From assembly GCA_003648125.1 (NCBI GenBank), contig QMOE01000141.1, forward strand, positions 1 through 6,545: a stretch of DNA of 6,545 nt, in the 5' to 3' direction. Every line of letters starts with the position of its first letter. Within the stretch, counting starts at the first letter, position 1. A model generated the notes under the pieces. The model was not told the origin of the DNA, searched no databases, and worked only from the letters and a program-made list of their open reading frames with translations. The position numbers were made by a program, and so were the translations under genes. Shown here one piece after another: positions 2,831 through 6,545 of the stretch. Source of the stretch: Chloroflexota bacterium. GTDB taxonomy: Bacteria; Chloroflexota; Anaerolineae; B4-G1.

Positions 2831-3973
2831 ATGAGCGAACCGGTAGGGACAACCACTCCTAAAACCGCACCTGGAATACTGAAGAAATTTAGGCCAGCCA
2901 TCAACGCCGTCCTGGTGCCGCTGCTGGCGGTATTCACGGCCCTGGTGTTGGGCGCGCTGGTCATCAAGGTCGTCGGAGGAGACCCTCTCGCCGCCTATAG
3001 GGGGCTGTTCGAGGGCGCGTTCGGCTCCGCCCAGGCGTTGAGCGAGACGACCGTCTGGGCCACCCCCTACATCCTGGCCGGCCTGGCAGTGGCCCTGGCA
3101 TTCAAGGGTGGGCTGTTCAACATCGGCGCGGAGGGGCAACTGGCCTTTGGCGCAGTGGCAGCGGCCTGGGTGGGTTACGCGCTACCGGACGTGCTGGGCG
3201 TGACGCTGCCGGCCGCTGTCCACATTCCACTGGCGGTCGGCGCTGGAATGCTGGCTGGCGGCATCTGGGGCGCTATCCCCGGCTGGCTCAAAGCTCGCAC
3301 CGGGGGACACGAGGTCATCAACACCATCATGATGAATTATATCGCCTTGAACATTACCAGTTTTCTCCTCAACGGGCCAATGAAGGACCGCTCCCCGCTC
3401 AACGTGGTGGCCCGCACGCCCCAGATCGCCGAGAGCGCGCGCATCCCTCCCATCATCGCCGGTTTCCGCTTACACTGGGGGTTCGTCCTGGCATTGGTGA
3501 TGGCCGGCATCGTCTGGTGGGTCTTGAGGAAAACGACGCTGGGATTCGAGATTCGCACCGCCGGAGCAAACCCCGACGCAGGACGGTACGCCGGCGTGAA
3601 CGTATCCCGCGCCATCGTGATGACGATGCTGCTTTCCGGCGTACTGGCCGGGCTGGCCGGGTCCCTTGAAGTGACCGCCCTCAACTACCGGCACGAATTA
3701 GGTTTCTCCGTCGGCTACGGTTTTGATGCCATCGCCATCGCGCTGCTGGGCAAGACGCACCCGGCCGGCGTGGTGCTGGCCTCCCTGCTGTGGGGCGCGA
3801 TGCGCAACGGAGCCTCCCGCATGCAGTTCCTGACCCAGATTCCGGTGGACGTCATCTCGGTCATCCAGGCACTGATCCTGCTCTTTGTAGCAGCCGACGC
3901 GATCGTCCGCTGGCTCTACCGCATCCGCGCTACAGAGGAGCGGCTGGTGCTCACACGCGGGTGGGGGGGATGA
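2831..3973 (+). CDS. ABC transporter permease, BPD_transp_2 family (nucleoside-type importer, first permease)
   Basis: This is a 380-residue polytopic inner-membrane protein that should pair with the second permease to form the channel. After a polar N-terminus (1-25), hydrophobic segments begin at about 25-48 and recur to about 360. Motifs typical of the NupP/YufP group of PF02653 are FNIGAEGQ (96-103), GGHEVINTIMMNY (158-170), and the cytoplasmic loop RTAGANPDAGRYAGV (242-256), which should contact the ATPase. The length is normal for the family. The start at 2831 has AGGA at 2822-2825 five bases upstream. The gene follows the binding-protein gene after a repeat-filled gap of 163 bases, and its end abuts the second permease (stop at 3971-3973). 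Nothing is missing or broken. Confidence 0.92.
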   Translation: MSEPVGTTTPKTAPGILKKFRPAINAVLVPLLAVFTALVLGALVIKVVGGDPLAAYRGLFEGAFGSAQALSETTVWATPYILAGLAVALAFKGGLFNIGAEGQLAFGAVAAAWVGYALPDVLGVTLPAAVHIPLAVGAGMLAGGIWGAIPGWLKARTGGHEVINTIMMNYIALNITSFLLNGPMKDRSPLNVVARTPQIAESARIPPIIAGFRLHWGFVLALVMAGIVWWVLRKTTLGFEIRTAGANPDAGRYAGVNVSRAIVMTMLLSGVLAGLAGSLEVTALNYRHELGFSVGYGFDAIAIALLGKTHPAGVVLASLLWGAMRNGASRMQFLTQIPVDVISVIQALILLFVAADAIVRWLYRIRATEERLVLTRGWGG

Positions 3974-3984: not shown

Positions 3985-5052
3985 ATGGATTGGCGACGTC
4001 TTGGCTTTATCTCTCTGATCATTATAATTCTCATCGGCGTGGTCGTGCTGGTCGGCGGGAAGGATGTCTCCCCAACCGTGATCGTGGTAAGTATGCTGGC
4101 GACCACCATCGCGGTGGCGACACCACTGACGCTGGGCGCGCTCTCCGGTATCTATTGCGAACGCGCTGGCGTGGTCAACATCGGCATCGAAGGCATGATG
4201 CTCTCATCCGCCTTCTTCGGCTGGTTCGGCGCCATCTACCTCAACACGATCCTGGGTGTCTCCCCCATGCCCAGCCTCATCTTTGGCGTGGTGGCGGCCA
4301 TCCTCACCGGCGGGCTGATGGGGTTGCTGCTTGCCGTTCTCTCGGTGACGTACAAGGTGGACCAGATCATCGGCGGGACGGTGATCAACATCCTGGCGAT
4401 TGGCATCTCGGGCTTTTTGAACCGGCAACTGTTCTTTGAAAAGGGGAGCATCTTTGGTGGACAGGTGCCGCACGCACCGGGCGTCCTGCCGCGCCTCAAG
4501 CTCCCATTTCTGGGCGATTCTCCCATCGCCAGCATCTTTGAGCAACAGCCAATCGCCATAGCCGCCATCCTGCTGGTGCTGCTGACCCACTTTATCCTCT
4601 TTTACACGCGCTGGGGGCTGCGCACGCGGGCAGTCGGCGAGCACCCCCGTGCCGCCGATACGGTGGGCATCAACGTGGCCCGCATGCGGTACACCAACGT
4701 GATCATCGGCGGGATGATCGCCGGCCTGGGAGGAGCCTACTTTACGCTGGAATCGGTGCCCTCCTTCGAGCCGTTGATGACCAACGGGCGCGGGTTCATC
4801 GCGCTGGCCGCCATGATCTTTGGCAACTGGTCGCCGTTCGGCGCGTGGGCATCCGCACTCGTCTTTGGCGCCGCGCAGGCGCTCCAGATCAACTTGCAGT
4901 TCTTCCGCGATCAGATTCCGGCCCAGTGGGCCTTTTTGCAGCAGGCCTACATCGTCGGCCTGGTGCCTTATCTGCTGACTATGCTGATCCTGACGGGCAT
5001 CATCGGCAAGACGACCCCACCCGTGGCAGATGGCGTGCCTTACGAGAAATAA
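3985..5052 (+). CDS. ABC transporter permease, BPD_transp_2 family (nucleoside-type importer, second permease)
   Basis: This 355-residue integral membrane protein is the second half of the channel. The first membrane segment is at about 7-24, and further hydrophobic stretches run to about 340. The NupQ/YufQ-like signature SGIYCERAGVVNIGIEGMM lies at 54-72, VDQIIGGTVINI at 125-136, the cytoplasmic coupling loop RAVGEHPRAADTVGI at 215-229, and GRGFIALAAMIFGNW at 268-282. These are the motifs expected of the shorter partner permease in BMP-type importers. The gene begins 12 bases after the first permease stop, so the two are almost certainly translated together. Its stop is followed not by the ATPase but by a repeat-rich module, leaving 796 bases before the ATPase start. 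Confidence 0.92.
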   Translation: MDWRRLGFISLIIIILIGVVVLVGGKDVSPTVIVVSMLATTIAVATPLTLGALSGIYCERAGVVNIGIEGMMLSSAFFGWFGAIYLNTILGVSPMPSLIFGVVAAILTGGLMGLLLAVLSVTYKVDQIIGGTVINILAIGISGFLNRQLFFEKGSIFGGQVPHAPGVLPRLKLPFLGDSPIASIFEQQPIAIAAILLVLLTHFILFYTRWGLRTRAVGEHPRAADTVGINVARMRYTNVIIGGMIAGLGGAYFTLESVPSFEPLMTNGRGFIALAAMIFGNWSPFGAWASALVFGAAQALQINLQFFRDQIPAQWAFLQQAYIVGLVPYLLTMLILTGIIGKTTPPVADGVPYEK

Positions 5053-5064
5053 TATACGGGAATC

Positions 5065-5094
5065 GGACGCAGACGAACGCAGACAAACGCAGAT
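5065..5094. repeat. CGCAGA tandem half-unit, left outer copy
   Basis: Three CGCAGA cores occur at a 10-base period, joined by CGAA and CAAA spacers (ACGCAGACGA, ACGCAGACAA, ACGCAGAT). It begins 12 bases after the permease stop and is the leftmost repeat of the module around the GxxExxY gene. In inverted orientation it resembles the single half-unit at 5687-5723. Confidence 0.75.
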
Positions 5095-5136
5095 CCATTC
5101 CCTTGACTGAACACTGGCAAATCACAGTTCTCGGAA

Positions 5137-5213
5137 CCAGGACGCAGACTAACGCCGAAAAACGCTGATTTTTATGCTCCTGTCTGCGAAATTCTGCGTT
5201 AATCTGCGTCCTG
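5137..5213. repeat. Left arm of a 77-bp inverted repeat, itself a palindrome
   Basis: Within this arm, 5138-5168 (starting CAGGACGCAGA) and 5183-5213 pair over 25 of 31 positions around a 14-base loop, so it can form its own hairpin. The whole arm is the reverse complement of 5752-5829 with about eight mismatches and one inserted base. A 9-base pair of words, CTGGCAAAT (5114-5122) and ATTTGCCAG (5230-5238), also brackets it as an exact inverted repeat. An A-run, not a T-run, follows, so it is not a forward terminator. Confidence 0.85.
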
Positions 5214-5255
5214 AAAAAAAGCCAGGAAAATTTGCCAGACTCCAGCCCTTGATAT

Positions 5256-5263
5256 GGAGGAGG
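5256..5263 (+). promoter_or_regulatory. Ribosome binding site supporting a TTG start for the GxxExxY gene
   Basis: GGAGGAGG lies just before TTG 5267; its first GGAGG ends six bases before that codon. Starting at TTG gives a protein beginning (M)DFKHTDVTE, which matches how this family usually begins. The upstream in-frame ATG at 5174 would instead translate part of the repeat hairpin. Confidence 0.6.
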
Positions 5264-5266
5264 TCT

Positions 5267-5679
5267 TTGGACTTTAAGCATACCGACGTAACCGAGTTGA
5301 TCATCAAAGCGTTTTACACGGTCTATCACACACTGGGCTACGGCTTCCTGGAAAAGGTCTACAGGAACGCGATGGTTATTGAACTCGCAAACTGGGATTG
5401 GACGTGATCCAGGAGGCACGCATCGCCGTCTACTACGACGACCAGGTGGTGGGCGAGTACTTTGCCGACTTGTTGGTAGCCGGCGCTGTGATCGTCGAAT
5501 TGAAAGCTGTAAAGAGGTTGTTGCCAGAACACGAAGCGCAGTTGCTCAACTACCTGAAAGCGACACCATACGAAGTCGGTCTGTTACTCAACTTTGGCCC
5601 CAAACCTGAAATCAAGCGCAAGGCGTTCGACAATTCACGTAAAGGCTCTATGCACTGGGTTCAAGTGTCACCCGCTTGA
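5267..5679 (+). pseudogene. GxxExxY family protein (PD-(D/E)XK-like), frameshifted
   Basis: This small protein would be about 137 residues, near the family norm, if a one-base frameshift were repaired. The first part, in the frame of 5267, carries the naming motif GFLEKVY (Gly26, Glu29, Tyr32) after TELIIKAFYTVYHTLGY, then runs into a TGA at 5405-5407. The second part, in the +1-shifted frame, continues the same family: LGLDVIQEARIAVYYDDQVVGEY, then ADLLV and VELKAV (the Asp and Glu-x-Lys of a PD-(D/E)XK-like core), HEAQLLNYLKAT and GLLLNFG. The join falls at the short A-run 5389-5391; adding one A there restores ELAKLGLDV. It may be a real lesion or a sequencing error. The family is assigned to PDDEXK_3 (PF13366/TIGR04256); its biochemical role is not established. 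It is flanked on both sides by inverted repeats and lies within an otherwise unrelated transport operon. Confidence 0.85.
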
Positions 5680-5686
5680 CAGAACC

Positions 5687-5723
5687 AAAATCAGCGTTCG
5701 TCGGCGTTAGTCTGCGTCCTGGT
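5687..5723. repeat. Half-unit repeat immediately after the GxxExxY gene
   Basis: This 37-base stretch begins eight bases after the GxxExxY stop. It is a direct copy of 5794-5830 with 35 of 37 identical bases, and an inverted copy of the outer part of the left arm. It carries the same TCAGCGTT...CGGCGTTAGTCTGCGTCC core but lacks the partner that would make a full hairpin. Confidence 0.8.
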
Positions 5724-5751
5724 AAAAATCCTGACCTGTTACGTCCCGTGG

Positions 5752-5829
5752 CAGAACGTAGATTCACGCAGAATTTCGCAGACCAGGAGCACAAAAATCA
5801 GCGTTCGTCGGCGTTAATCTGCGTCCCGG
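5752..5829. repeat. Right arm of the inverted repeat, itself a palindrome
   Basis: This 78-base arm is the reverse complement of 5137-5213 with about eight mismatches and one inserted base, including an unbroken match over the ACGCAGAATTTCGCAGA portion and the AAAAATCAGCG portion. Its own halves also pair, less well (about 20 of 29 positions), around a loop with CCAGGAGCAC. It ends only 19 bases before the ATPase start codon. Confidence 0.85.
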
Positions 5830-5848
5830 TCAAAATGGAGAATGACCA

Positions 5849-6545
5849 ATGACTAATAATGATCTGGCTCTTGAAGCAAAAGGCATCACCAAACGATTCC
5901 CCGGCGTCCTGGCGAACGATCACGTAGACTTTGACCTGCGCAAAGGGGAGATTCACGCCCTGCTGGGTGAAAACGGCGCGGGCAAGACCACGCTGATGAA
6001 CATCATCTACGGCCTGTACGCGCAAGATGAGGGTCAAGTTTTCCTCGCCGGCAAGCAAGTTGATATTCACGACTCTAACAACGCTATCGCGCACGGCATC
6101 GGCATGGTACACCAGCACTTTATGCTCATCCCGGTCTTTACCGTGGCCGAAAACATCATGCTGGGCGCGGAGACGGTGCGCGGATTAAAGCTGGATCGGC
6201 GCGGCGTGGCGGCGCGGGTGCGGGAGCTTTCACACCAATACGGGCTAGACGTAGACCCCACATCCTACGTTAGCGATCTGCCAGTCGGCGTGCAGCAGCG
6301 GGTGGAAATCATCAAGGCCCTCTACCGCCAGGCCGAAATCCTGATTCTTGACGAGCCGACCGCCGTGCTCACGCCGCAGGAGGCGGATGATCTCTTTAAC
6401 ATTATGCGCGAACTGGCCGAGCAGGGCACATCCATCGTCTTTATCACCCACAAACTCAAGGAGGTGCTGGTCGTGGCCGACCGGATCACGGTGATGCGGG
6501 CCGGGCATGTCGTCGGCACGGTCGTTCCCCAGGAGACGGACGAAC
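5849..6545 (+). CDS. ABC transporter ATP-binding protein of the nucleoside-type importer (N-terminal cassette; 3' truncated)
   Basis: The frame stays open from ATG 5849 to the right edge, giving 232 residues. It is the ATPase that drives the two permeases. Visible motifs are Walker A GENGAGKT (40-47), Q-loop Gln89 in MVHQHFMLIP, the signature region LPVGVQQRVEI (144-154), Walker B ILILDE (164-169, catalytic Glu169), and switch His201. The QQRVEI signature and the PTAVLTP sequence after Walker B are typical of the NupO/YufO/RnsB-partner group, whose members are usually about 500 residues with two cassettes; the second would lie beyond this window. The start has GGAG at 5837-5840, and ATGs at 5835 and 5842 are in frames that stop at once. 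Oddly, the Ser of the usual LSVG signature is Pro145 here. The gene is 796 bases from the second permease because of the inserted repeat module. Confidence 0.93.
   Translation, partial: MTNNDLALEAKGITKRFPGVLANDHVDFDLRKGEIHALLGENGAGKTTLMNIIYGLYAQDEGQVFLAGKQVDIHDSNNAIAHGIGMVHQHFMLIPVFTVAENIMLGAETVRGLKLDRRGVAARVRELSHQYGLDVDPTSYVSDLPVGVQQRVEIIKALYRQAEILILDEPTAVLTPQEADDLFNIMRELAEQGTSIVFITHKLKEVLVVADRITVMRAGHVVGTVVPQETDE

Follow-up and report, generated by a model that had tools for sequence, protein, structure and literature searches.

The element described here is closest in its arrangement to the REP-RAYT systems (REPtrons), in which a small gene lies between inverted repeats. The hallmarks of these systems, as given in passages of PMC2817692 and, as a further source, of PMC8266576, are inverted flanking repeats, co-evolution of gene and repeat, repeat abundance that follows the cognate gene and dispersed gene-less palindromes. 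The RAYT enzymes are HUH tyrosine transposases akin to those of IS200/IS605. The intervening sequences (IVSs) of 23S rRNA, treated in passages of PMC4990558 as a selfish element in Coxiella, are likewise insertions that contain a short ORF. These IVSs, which are associated with the S23 protein (PF05635), lie in rRNA and are excised from the RNA by RNase III. Insertion sequences and MITEs also have a gene between terminal inverted repeats and gene-less derivatives. Cas4 (SSO0001), archaeal Hjc and lambda-type exonucleases are PD-(D/E)XK nucleases, none of which is, to our knowledge, tied to phased repeats.

The GxxExxY proteins are a very large family, with at least 7,994 matches among the 7,999 candidates that we scored, and we know of no function and no biochemical activity for them. 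In the excerpts retrieved from the open-access literature (subscription papers and preprints lay outside its scope), GxxExxY occurred in passing mentions only, the names PF13366, TIGR04256 and PDDEXK_3 were scarcely present, and work on interspersed palindromes in Chloroflexi was of REP-type and other kinds, none of it naming GxxExxY. Six of the repeat words discussed below were absent from the open-access literature searched, which also yielded no description of a GxxExxY-plus-repeat element.

We analysed a window of 6,545 nucleotides, that is, the whole stretch of DNA under study, in which a GxxExxY gene lies between inverted arrays of short words. Like the REPtrons, this kind of element combines a small gene between inverted repeats with gene-repeat co-evolution, cognate abundance and gene-less palindromes. 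Unlike them, it encodes a predicted PD-(D/E)XK protein, and its repeat consists of inverted arrays of words phased at about 10 bp. A genome has several families of such words and several gene types. The two pieces of the window gene match PF13366/TIGR04256 only and not an HUH transposase, and the window element is not a RAYT. A preliminary description of this DNA had loosely compared it to REP sequences with their RAYT transposase; the likeness holds for the inverted flanking repeats, the co-evolution and the cognate abundance, but not for the type of enzyme. Unlike the IVS, the window element lies between protein genes, its protein is unrelated to S23 and the GxxExxY family is without an RNA-pairing signature. 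Unlike insertion sequences and MITEs, the GxxExxY element is without target duplication and contains no further gene.

A composite block inside an ABC transporter operon

The open reading frames of the window include an operon with a BMP-type binding protein gene (1522–2667), ABC permease 1 (2831–3973), ABC permease subunit 2 (3985–5052, forward strand) and an ABC ATPase (5849–6544, forward strand) that continues past the window edge. The top NCBIfam matches of permease 2 (NF047928, 138.6 bits) and of the ATPase (NF047930, 275.3 bits) fall far under their cut-offs of 465 and 670, respectively, and a relative of permease 2 (L081) is 81% identical. Directly 3' of the BMP gene, at 2690–2734, lies an inverted repeat of 17 nt without mismatches and with 11 nt in its loop; it is perhaps a terminator-like hairpin of the operon. 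The window also encodes a PLD-like protein (185–1300) with two PLDc_2 stretches, the top NCBIfam match of which, DISARM DrmC, is under cut-off (97.1 versus 133).

The block of interest occupies the 796 bp (5053–5848) between the permease 2 stop at 5052 and the ATPase start at 5849, so that it parts the second permease from its ATPase as the preliminary description had it; the deletion of 5065–5830 that was proposed there does leave 12 + 18 = 30 bases. The block is composite, with an outer array, a full palindrome, the gene, an inverted array and a full inverted palindrome in that order. The left outer array (5065–5094, forward) contains three word units spaced by 10 bp, at 5067, 5077 and 5087, and pairs over 30 nt at 87% with the right array (5690–5719, reverse), the three units of which, at 5690, 5700 and 5710, are inverted with respect to it. 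Palindrome 1 (5138–5213), which is complete and of the gene-less kind, spans 76 bp, with arms that are 81% complementary and 14 nt between them, and palindrome 2 (about 5752–5826, reverse), also complete, is an inverted copy of it. Pairing further joins 5136–5172 with 5687–5723 (37 nt, 95%) and 5136–5182 with 5784–5830 (47 nt, 89%). The arm score of the window is 111, compared to a maximum of 28 among 1000 dinucleotide shuffles, and the earlier observation that repeats bracket the gene on both sides is borne out by arm pairing of 87–95%. All five forward word units of the block are 5' of the gene (5067, 5077, 5087, 5142 and 5162), while six of the seven reverse units are 3' of it (5690, 5700, 5710, 5797, 5807 and 5817) and one is at 5202. 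A loose word pattern gives 12 forward and 12 reverse matches elsewhere in the window, and an Rfam search of the window at gathering scores returned no match.

The gene had been described as that of a nuclease-like GxxExxY protein. The family assignment stands, but the gene is not intact and consists of two overlapping frames, about 5267–5407 and 5398–5679, both forward. The N-terminal piece has a TTG start with GGAGG upstream and contains GFLEKVY, the GxxExxY pattern; the C-terminal piece, in the other frame, carries the D and E-x-K residues of a PD-(D/E)XK centre (FADLL...VELKA). Both pieces pass the cut-offs of TIGR04256 (38.1 and 84.4 bits, cut-off 35) and of PF13366 (40.1 and 85.9 bits, cut-off 22), the N-terminal piece having been searched from position 5270. 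Among the matches listed, three further 91-residue clusters (7 contigs) are 99–100% identical to the C-terminal piece and look like the same shortened form, and one intact 137-residue cluster is 99% identical across the whole of that piece. Because the shortened product recurs in 7 contigs beside one intact relative, the frameshift probably reflects the population rather than an isolated assembly error.

A structure model of an intact relative (pLDDT 90.4) is PD-(D/E)XK-like; Foldseek ranked Cas4 as its nearest fold, with Hjc resolvases and exonucleases also among the nearest, and GxxExxY is thus predicted to adopt the PD-(D/E)XK fold. A sequence search of the PDB, these nucleases included, gave no match up to an E value of 10. 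Across 69 sequences, picked among open frames, columns 26, 29, 32, 68, 78 and 80 are conserved at 90% or more, and these include the putative catalytic-site residues D68, E78 and K80.

Inverted arms and matching words across the family

GTDB species genomes were scanned with a 27-sequence profile (A1), and the best 80 of at least 578 confirmed loci were collected. By their record titles these 80 come from Chloroflexi, Acidobacteria, Bacteroidetes, Planctomycetes, Zixibacteria, KSB1, Latescibacteria, Nitrospirae, Deltaproteobacteria, Cloacimonadota, Armatimonadota and others. In most of them the flanks, as read, carry GRACRCNGAT-type words 5' of the gene and the same type reversed 3' of it; a pattern search finds a word unit on both sides at 64 of 79 loci, and at one locus (L042) no words are visible by eye. 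A strict two-unit word pattern caught both arms in just 37 of 78 full-flank loci, with 71 matches in 863 kb of control, and since it missed arms we used instead a motif-free local alignment of the upstream flank with the reverse complement of the downstream flank (about 250 bp each). An arm score of at least 30 was reached by 49 of 76 GxxExxY loci, as opposed to 98 of 608 mismatched pairs, to 7 of the 591 further ORFs in these loci and to 1 of 760 shuffled sequences. With 40 stretches from seven genomes and 30 Spirosoma loci added, the set rose to 148 genes with flanks, and 100 of these scored at least 28 (102 of 1480 mismatched pairs; 1 of 1480 shuffles). Eight of the 148 loci each repeat a gene already in the set; without them 140 remain, on which the arm counts, Mantel and mismatch tests given here are based, but they are still counted in the placement, Spirosoma-versus-other and arm self-match figures. 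Among the distinct genes, arms are present at this threshold in 96 of 140, versus 93 of 1400 mismatched pairs. This enrichment agrees with the earlier proposal that gene and repeats form one unit, as does the agreement between genes and their cognate words. Not every GxxExxY copy is flanked by this measure, with 44 of the 140 under the threshold, and each protein subfamily tends to have a repeat word of its own.

A CCCGTTAGA...TCTAACGGGG-like hairpin lies within the word array at three loci (L015, L021 and L049) in two records, L015 and L021 sharing one, and in these two there is an apparent short duplication (TGAAC) at the hairpin inserted in the array.

The arms are built from phased words. 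Within the window subfamily, 131 of 170 unit spacings of up to 30 bp are 9 or 10 bp, and the pattern-free self-match of the arms peaks at 9–10 bp (0.35–0.42; shuffled 0.28) with a second rise at 18–20. Other GxxExxY subfamilies have other phased words, among them CGCAGAG, CACAGAT, CGCAAAG, CACGAAG, CGCGAAT, CAGGATT and CATAG. The word pattern of the window subfamily fixes C, C, G and A and limits the third letter to A or G; the fixed letters therefore come from the pattern, and the result lies in the agreement of the variable and linker letters. The third and fifth word letters agree from arm to arm at 0.90 and 0.56 (between loci 0.56 and 0.27), and letters past the word at 0.32 and 0.44 (between loci 0.30 and 0.35). 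The commonest word is identical on both sides in 43 of 64 loci, where permutation gives a mean of 12.4 and a maximum of 23. As linker bases hardly match between the arms and the mismatches show no G-U excess (below), the conserved entity is, at the level of sequence, the array of words phased at about 10 bp and not a fully pairing hairpin.

Protein and word vary together. For 96 distinct loci the Spearman correlation between protein identity and repeat similarity is 0.370 in a Mantel test (maximum of 1000 permutations 0.151); a repeat is shared by 30 of 39 pairs at a protein identity of 0.7 or more and by 19 of 1966 pairs under 0.4. Comparing 26 Spirosoma loci, one gene being included twice, with 27 from other genomes gives a correlation of 0.297, a value that 0 of 2000 permutations reach, and the highest identity bin has a common word in just 30% of 37 pairs. 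Judged from these comparisons, protein similarity is a predictor of the word, across phyla too. Residue 120, chosen post hoc as the top column, varies with a letter of the word: it is A, S or G in 33 of 42 loci with a CGC word and I, V, T or L in 17 of 18 loci with a CAC word; independent pairs were 5 concordant, 0 discordant and 6 unchanged.

An analogous arrangement was seen for PF05635 (23S_rRNA_IVP, a four-helix bundle) in ten of the same genomes. Inverted arms flank 24 of 30 of these genes (L271–L300), versus 25 of 870 mismatched pairs. The period of these arms is strictly 7 bp (match 0.58–0.59 at lags 7, 14 and 21). This looks like a second, parallel system of protein plus phased repeat; a search of the open-access literature for heptamer repeats with four-helix bundle proteins gave nothing relevant.

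Word abundance, gene-less copies and empty sites

Our survey of the strict two-unit word covered 120 genomes from the same class as G001, which is an Anaerolineales record. GxxExxY matches were found in 79 of the genomes and the word in 50, and a reversed control pattern gave 0 matches in the same scans. The presence of gene and word is associated (43 genomes with both, 36 with the gene only, 7 with the word only and 34 with neither; Fisher p 8e-5). We then distinguished genomes with a window-type gene, a class drawn once the scores had been viewed, which takes in matches with E values of about 1e-36 or lower and a fragment in G028. The word is present in 27 of 30 window-type genomes, in 16 of the 49 that have only other types and in 7 of the 41 without GxxExxY, and at least 4 copies occur in 24 of 30, 5 of 49 and 6 of 41, respectively. 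Word abundance differs between the window type and other types (p 5e-7), whereas other types and none are alike in the frequency of at least 4 copies (p 0.54). A statistical link between repeat and gene across genomes, on which the preliminary description hinged, is therefore present. The exceptions, for which genome completeness was not reported, are 11 of the 120 genomes with at least 4 copies and no window-type gene and 3 of the 30 window-type genomes that lack the word. One genome (G036) has 105 copies of the two-unit word and no GxxExxY match; it may have lost the gene, be incomplete or use another enzyme.

Among 21 genomes with GxxExxY, matches to the strict word are most numerous in G006 (128, with 3 genes), G008 (65, with 6) and G007 (64, with 2), and 9 of the 21 have 0. 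Twenty stretches from G006, taken at the first listed of its 128 matches and hence not at random, were examined for solo copies. A complete GGAC...GTCC palindrome of 50–82 bp, in seven cases of 70–72 bp, is present in 10 of the 20, and a simple motif test detected no GxxExxY-like coding in these solo stretches, so that solo repeats, which the preliminary description had only raised as a prospect, do exist as dispersed gene-less palindromes of about 70 bp. The similarity of solo pairs has a median of 0.59 and reaches 0.99. Their flanks mostly differ, but the most alike pair (L261/L270) is the same in the flanking bases too, and the copied unit may therefore, by this comparison, be longer than the palindrome. 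GxxExxY copies within one genome, where read, are mostly divergent; G017 has two adjacent copies with equal score.

The site in the window was compared at the 30 loci with the best permease-2 matches in the 120 genomes of the G001 class. The ATPase was found downstream in 17, and in all 17 the gap, measured from the end of the permease alignment, is 4–129 bp and without the block; the other 13 were left out of the gap count as no ATPase lay beside the permease within the short stretch examined. The gap is 13 in the closest operon relative (80–81% identical), and tblastn with the C-terminal piece (E 1e-8) gave no GxxExxY match in the 30 short loci. As the closest operon relatives found belong to this class, the window probably comes from an Anaerolineae bacterium. 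At two loci, L085 and L086, the same gap as that filled by the window block holds other short palindromes, of the ACAATGATCAATG and AGTGAGATAGTG types.

For Spirosoma, the joined flanks of 6 of 20 elements served as queries against 36 genomes from the genus, and 20 stretches were examined. All six sites are empty or eroded in at least one relative. They measure 491 bp when occupied (L228) versus 9 bp in L231, 526 bp (L223) versus 20 bp in L233 and L234, and 590 bp (L211) versus 24–38 bp in 7 relatives, and at the other three sites the relatives have 16–65 bp (L229), 25 bp (L212) and 58 bp (L218). Two species (L246 and L247) retain at the L218 site a gene-less remnant of 117–130 bp with both ends present. 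Empty sites, the expectation set by the preliminary description, thus occur both in the ABC operon, wherever the ATPase adjoins, and at every Spirosoma site tested. These are cross-species comparisons, and we saw no precise jump among near-identical genomes. Among the matches listed, some Spirosoma sites are occupied in several species, from which it follows that inheritance is largely vertical.

In the Spirosoma spacer between an oxidoreductase gene and preA (named by NCBIfam), a GxxExxY gene is present in 2 of 17 species in which both genes were found. The spacers without the element (L112–L127) mostly have a different, GAGTGAAAGAGCG-type palindrome, as judged by eye and often at the upstream stop, so the spacer would be a shared insertion spot; because of these other palindromes it was not used to define element borders. 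In the spacer before a tyrA-like gene (named from its translation), the GxxExxY gene of L217 and L227 is reversed relative to that of L211, L220 and L221, as if the interior had inverted between the arms or the insertions were independent. One element (L212, 1451–3527) lies in a CRISPR operon of Spirosoma, where it separates cas4 from cas1. Phage or plasmid carriage was rejected as an explanation: with P0002 as query, 0 of 50,697 phage records and, rarely, 8 of 72,556 plasmid records matched. Viral contigs scanned with A1 gave 7 pattern matches and no relative, and a PHROGs search gave weak matches only.

Proposed mechanism, alternatives and meaning

At the level of sequence, gene and arrays form a unit, its words co-vary with the protein, and both solo copies and empty sites occur. 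The block is probably a REP-like element, composed of a PD-(D/E)XK gene between inverted arrays of its own recognition word together with two gene-less palindromes. We infer that the GxxExxY protein is responsible for binding, cutting, movement and spread. It would bind duplex DNA from one face, one unit per helical turn, and read the word, and its D...ExK centre would cut or nick at the word array; processing of the repeats by the protein, as the preliminary description had suggested, would belong to this step. Repair or recombination would then copy the palindrome of about 70 bp into other intergenic sites and, rarely, the gene-bearing form. The gene copy would be mostly inherited vertically and would sometimes decay, as in the window. 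Weighing against this reading are the genes under the arm threshold, the exceptions in word abundance, the common flanks of L261 and L270, the mostly divergent gene copies within a genome, and the failure to find either a target duplication or a precise jump.

It is possible, though unlikely, that the gene is instead a homing-type rider on palindromes that are made otherwise, its nuclease cutting palindromes or empty sites and the gene being copied in by recombination. Such a rider would explain why gene-bearing and gene-less forms have common arms and why L246 and L247 have gene-less remnants where the L218 species has the gene, and Hjc resolvases and exonucleases are among the nearest folds. 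It would also fit the lack of a target duplication: in 63 distinct elements anchored on the outermost unit, 4-bp direct matches were found in 2 and none were longer; with small offsets, matches of at least 4 bp occur in 7 of 63 versus 472 of 3906 mismatched pairs; and none were found in 53 elements anchored on the gene-nearest unit, which is often not the outer end. However, word abundance follows the cognate gene type, which is not required of a rider on foreign repeats, and no other word-tied protein was seen in an unsystematic inspection.

A regulator embedded in the operon appears quite improbable; here an autoregulating protein of nuclease fold would use the words as operators or as sites of local DNA structure, and they would be kept for operon expression and not for spread. 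The placement of the 95 loci above the arm threshold with enough flank does suit such a regulator, as 71 are co-directional with both neighbours and 8 are opposite to both (of the others, 11 have neighbours on unlike strands and 5 lack a neighbour in the stretch), and between same-direction neighbours the element fits snugly, with medians of 1 bp from the upstream stop and 12 bp to the next start. The ~10-bp phasing would likewise suit cooperative binding. Yet a pure regulator needs none of D68, E78 and K80, which are retained as described above, and the dispersed, similar solo copies, some with common flanks, and the empty sites amount to gain and loss. The bias of 71 to 8 suggests selection as much as mechanism.

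A very improbable alternative to the REP-like element is an intervening sequence acting at the RNA level, the arms of which would pair in the transcript and be processed, for example by RNase III as in the 23S rRNA IVS, the insertion being tolerated. The arms can fold, with a predicted −36 kcal/mol for 5138–5213, and the elements lie mostly within co-directional gene runs. RNA stems would, however, give an excess of G-U over A-C mismatches, and on the coding strand the arms have 200 G-U versus 226 A-C (195 versus 223 with duplicates removed). The RNA stem model for the arms was rejected on this count, which favours recognition of DNA, and the linker positions barely match between the arms. Finally, an anti-phage function of the nuclease, or one linked to CRISPR, in which the repeats would be self sites shielded from it, deserves next to no credence in spite of the element between cas4 and cas1 and the top-ranked Cas4 fold, as PADLOC, a defence library, gave only weak and unconvincing matches for 3 proteins (best E 0.0021) and the other sites examined closely are ordinary operons (ABC transporter, oxidoreductase gene/preA and a gene pair read as aminotransferase/tyrA-like).

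The REP-like element of the window points to a little-studied class of such elements, with relatives in many bacteria that have their own matching words, and a cognate repeat gives the GxxExxY family a testable role. We lean, with some reserve, towards a broader proposal: the GxxExxY proteins, of about 130 residues and of PD-(D/E)XK type, may be the enzymes of a hitherto undescribed class of repeat-spreading systems that spans phyla. They would read duplex words phased at about 10 bp, residue 120 contributing to the choice of the third letter, and would seed genomes with cognate palindromes. Together with the PF05635 genes and their 7-bp-phased arms they may form a wider phased-word class, to which a large share of the intergenic palindromes of environmental bacteria could be due. 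If this is true, the REP-RAYT arrangement would have arisen again with an unrelated enzyme, the intergenic palindrome families of many uncultured phyla would be explained, and compact natural protein-word pairs would be at hand for work on DNA reading by a minimal nuclease fold.
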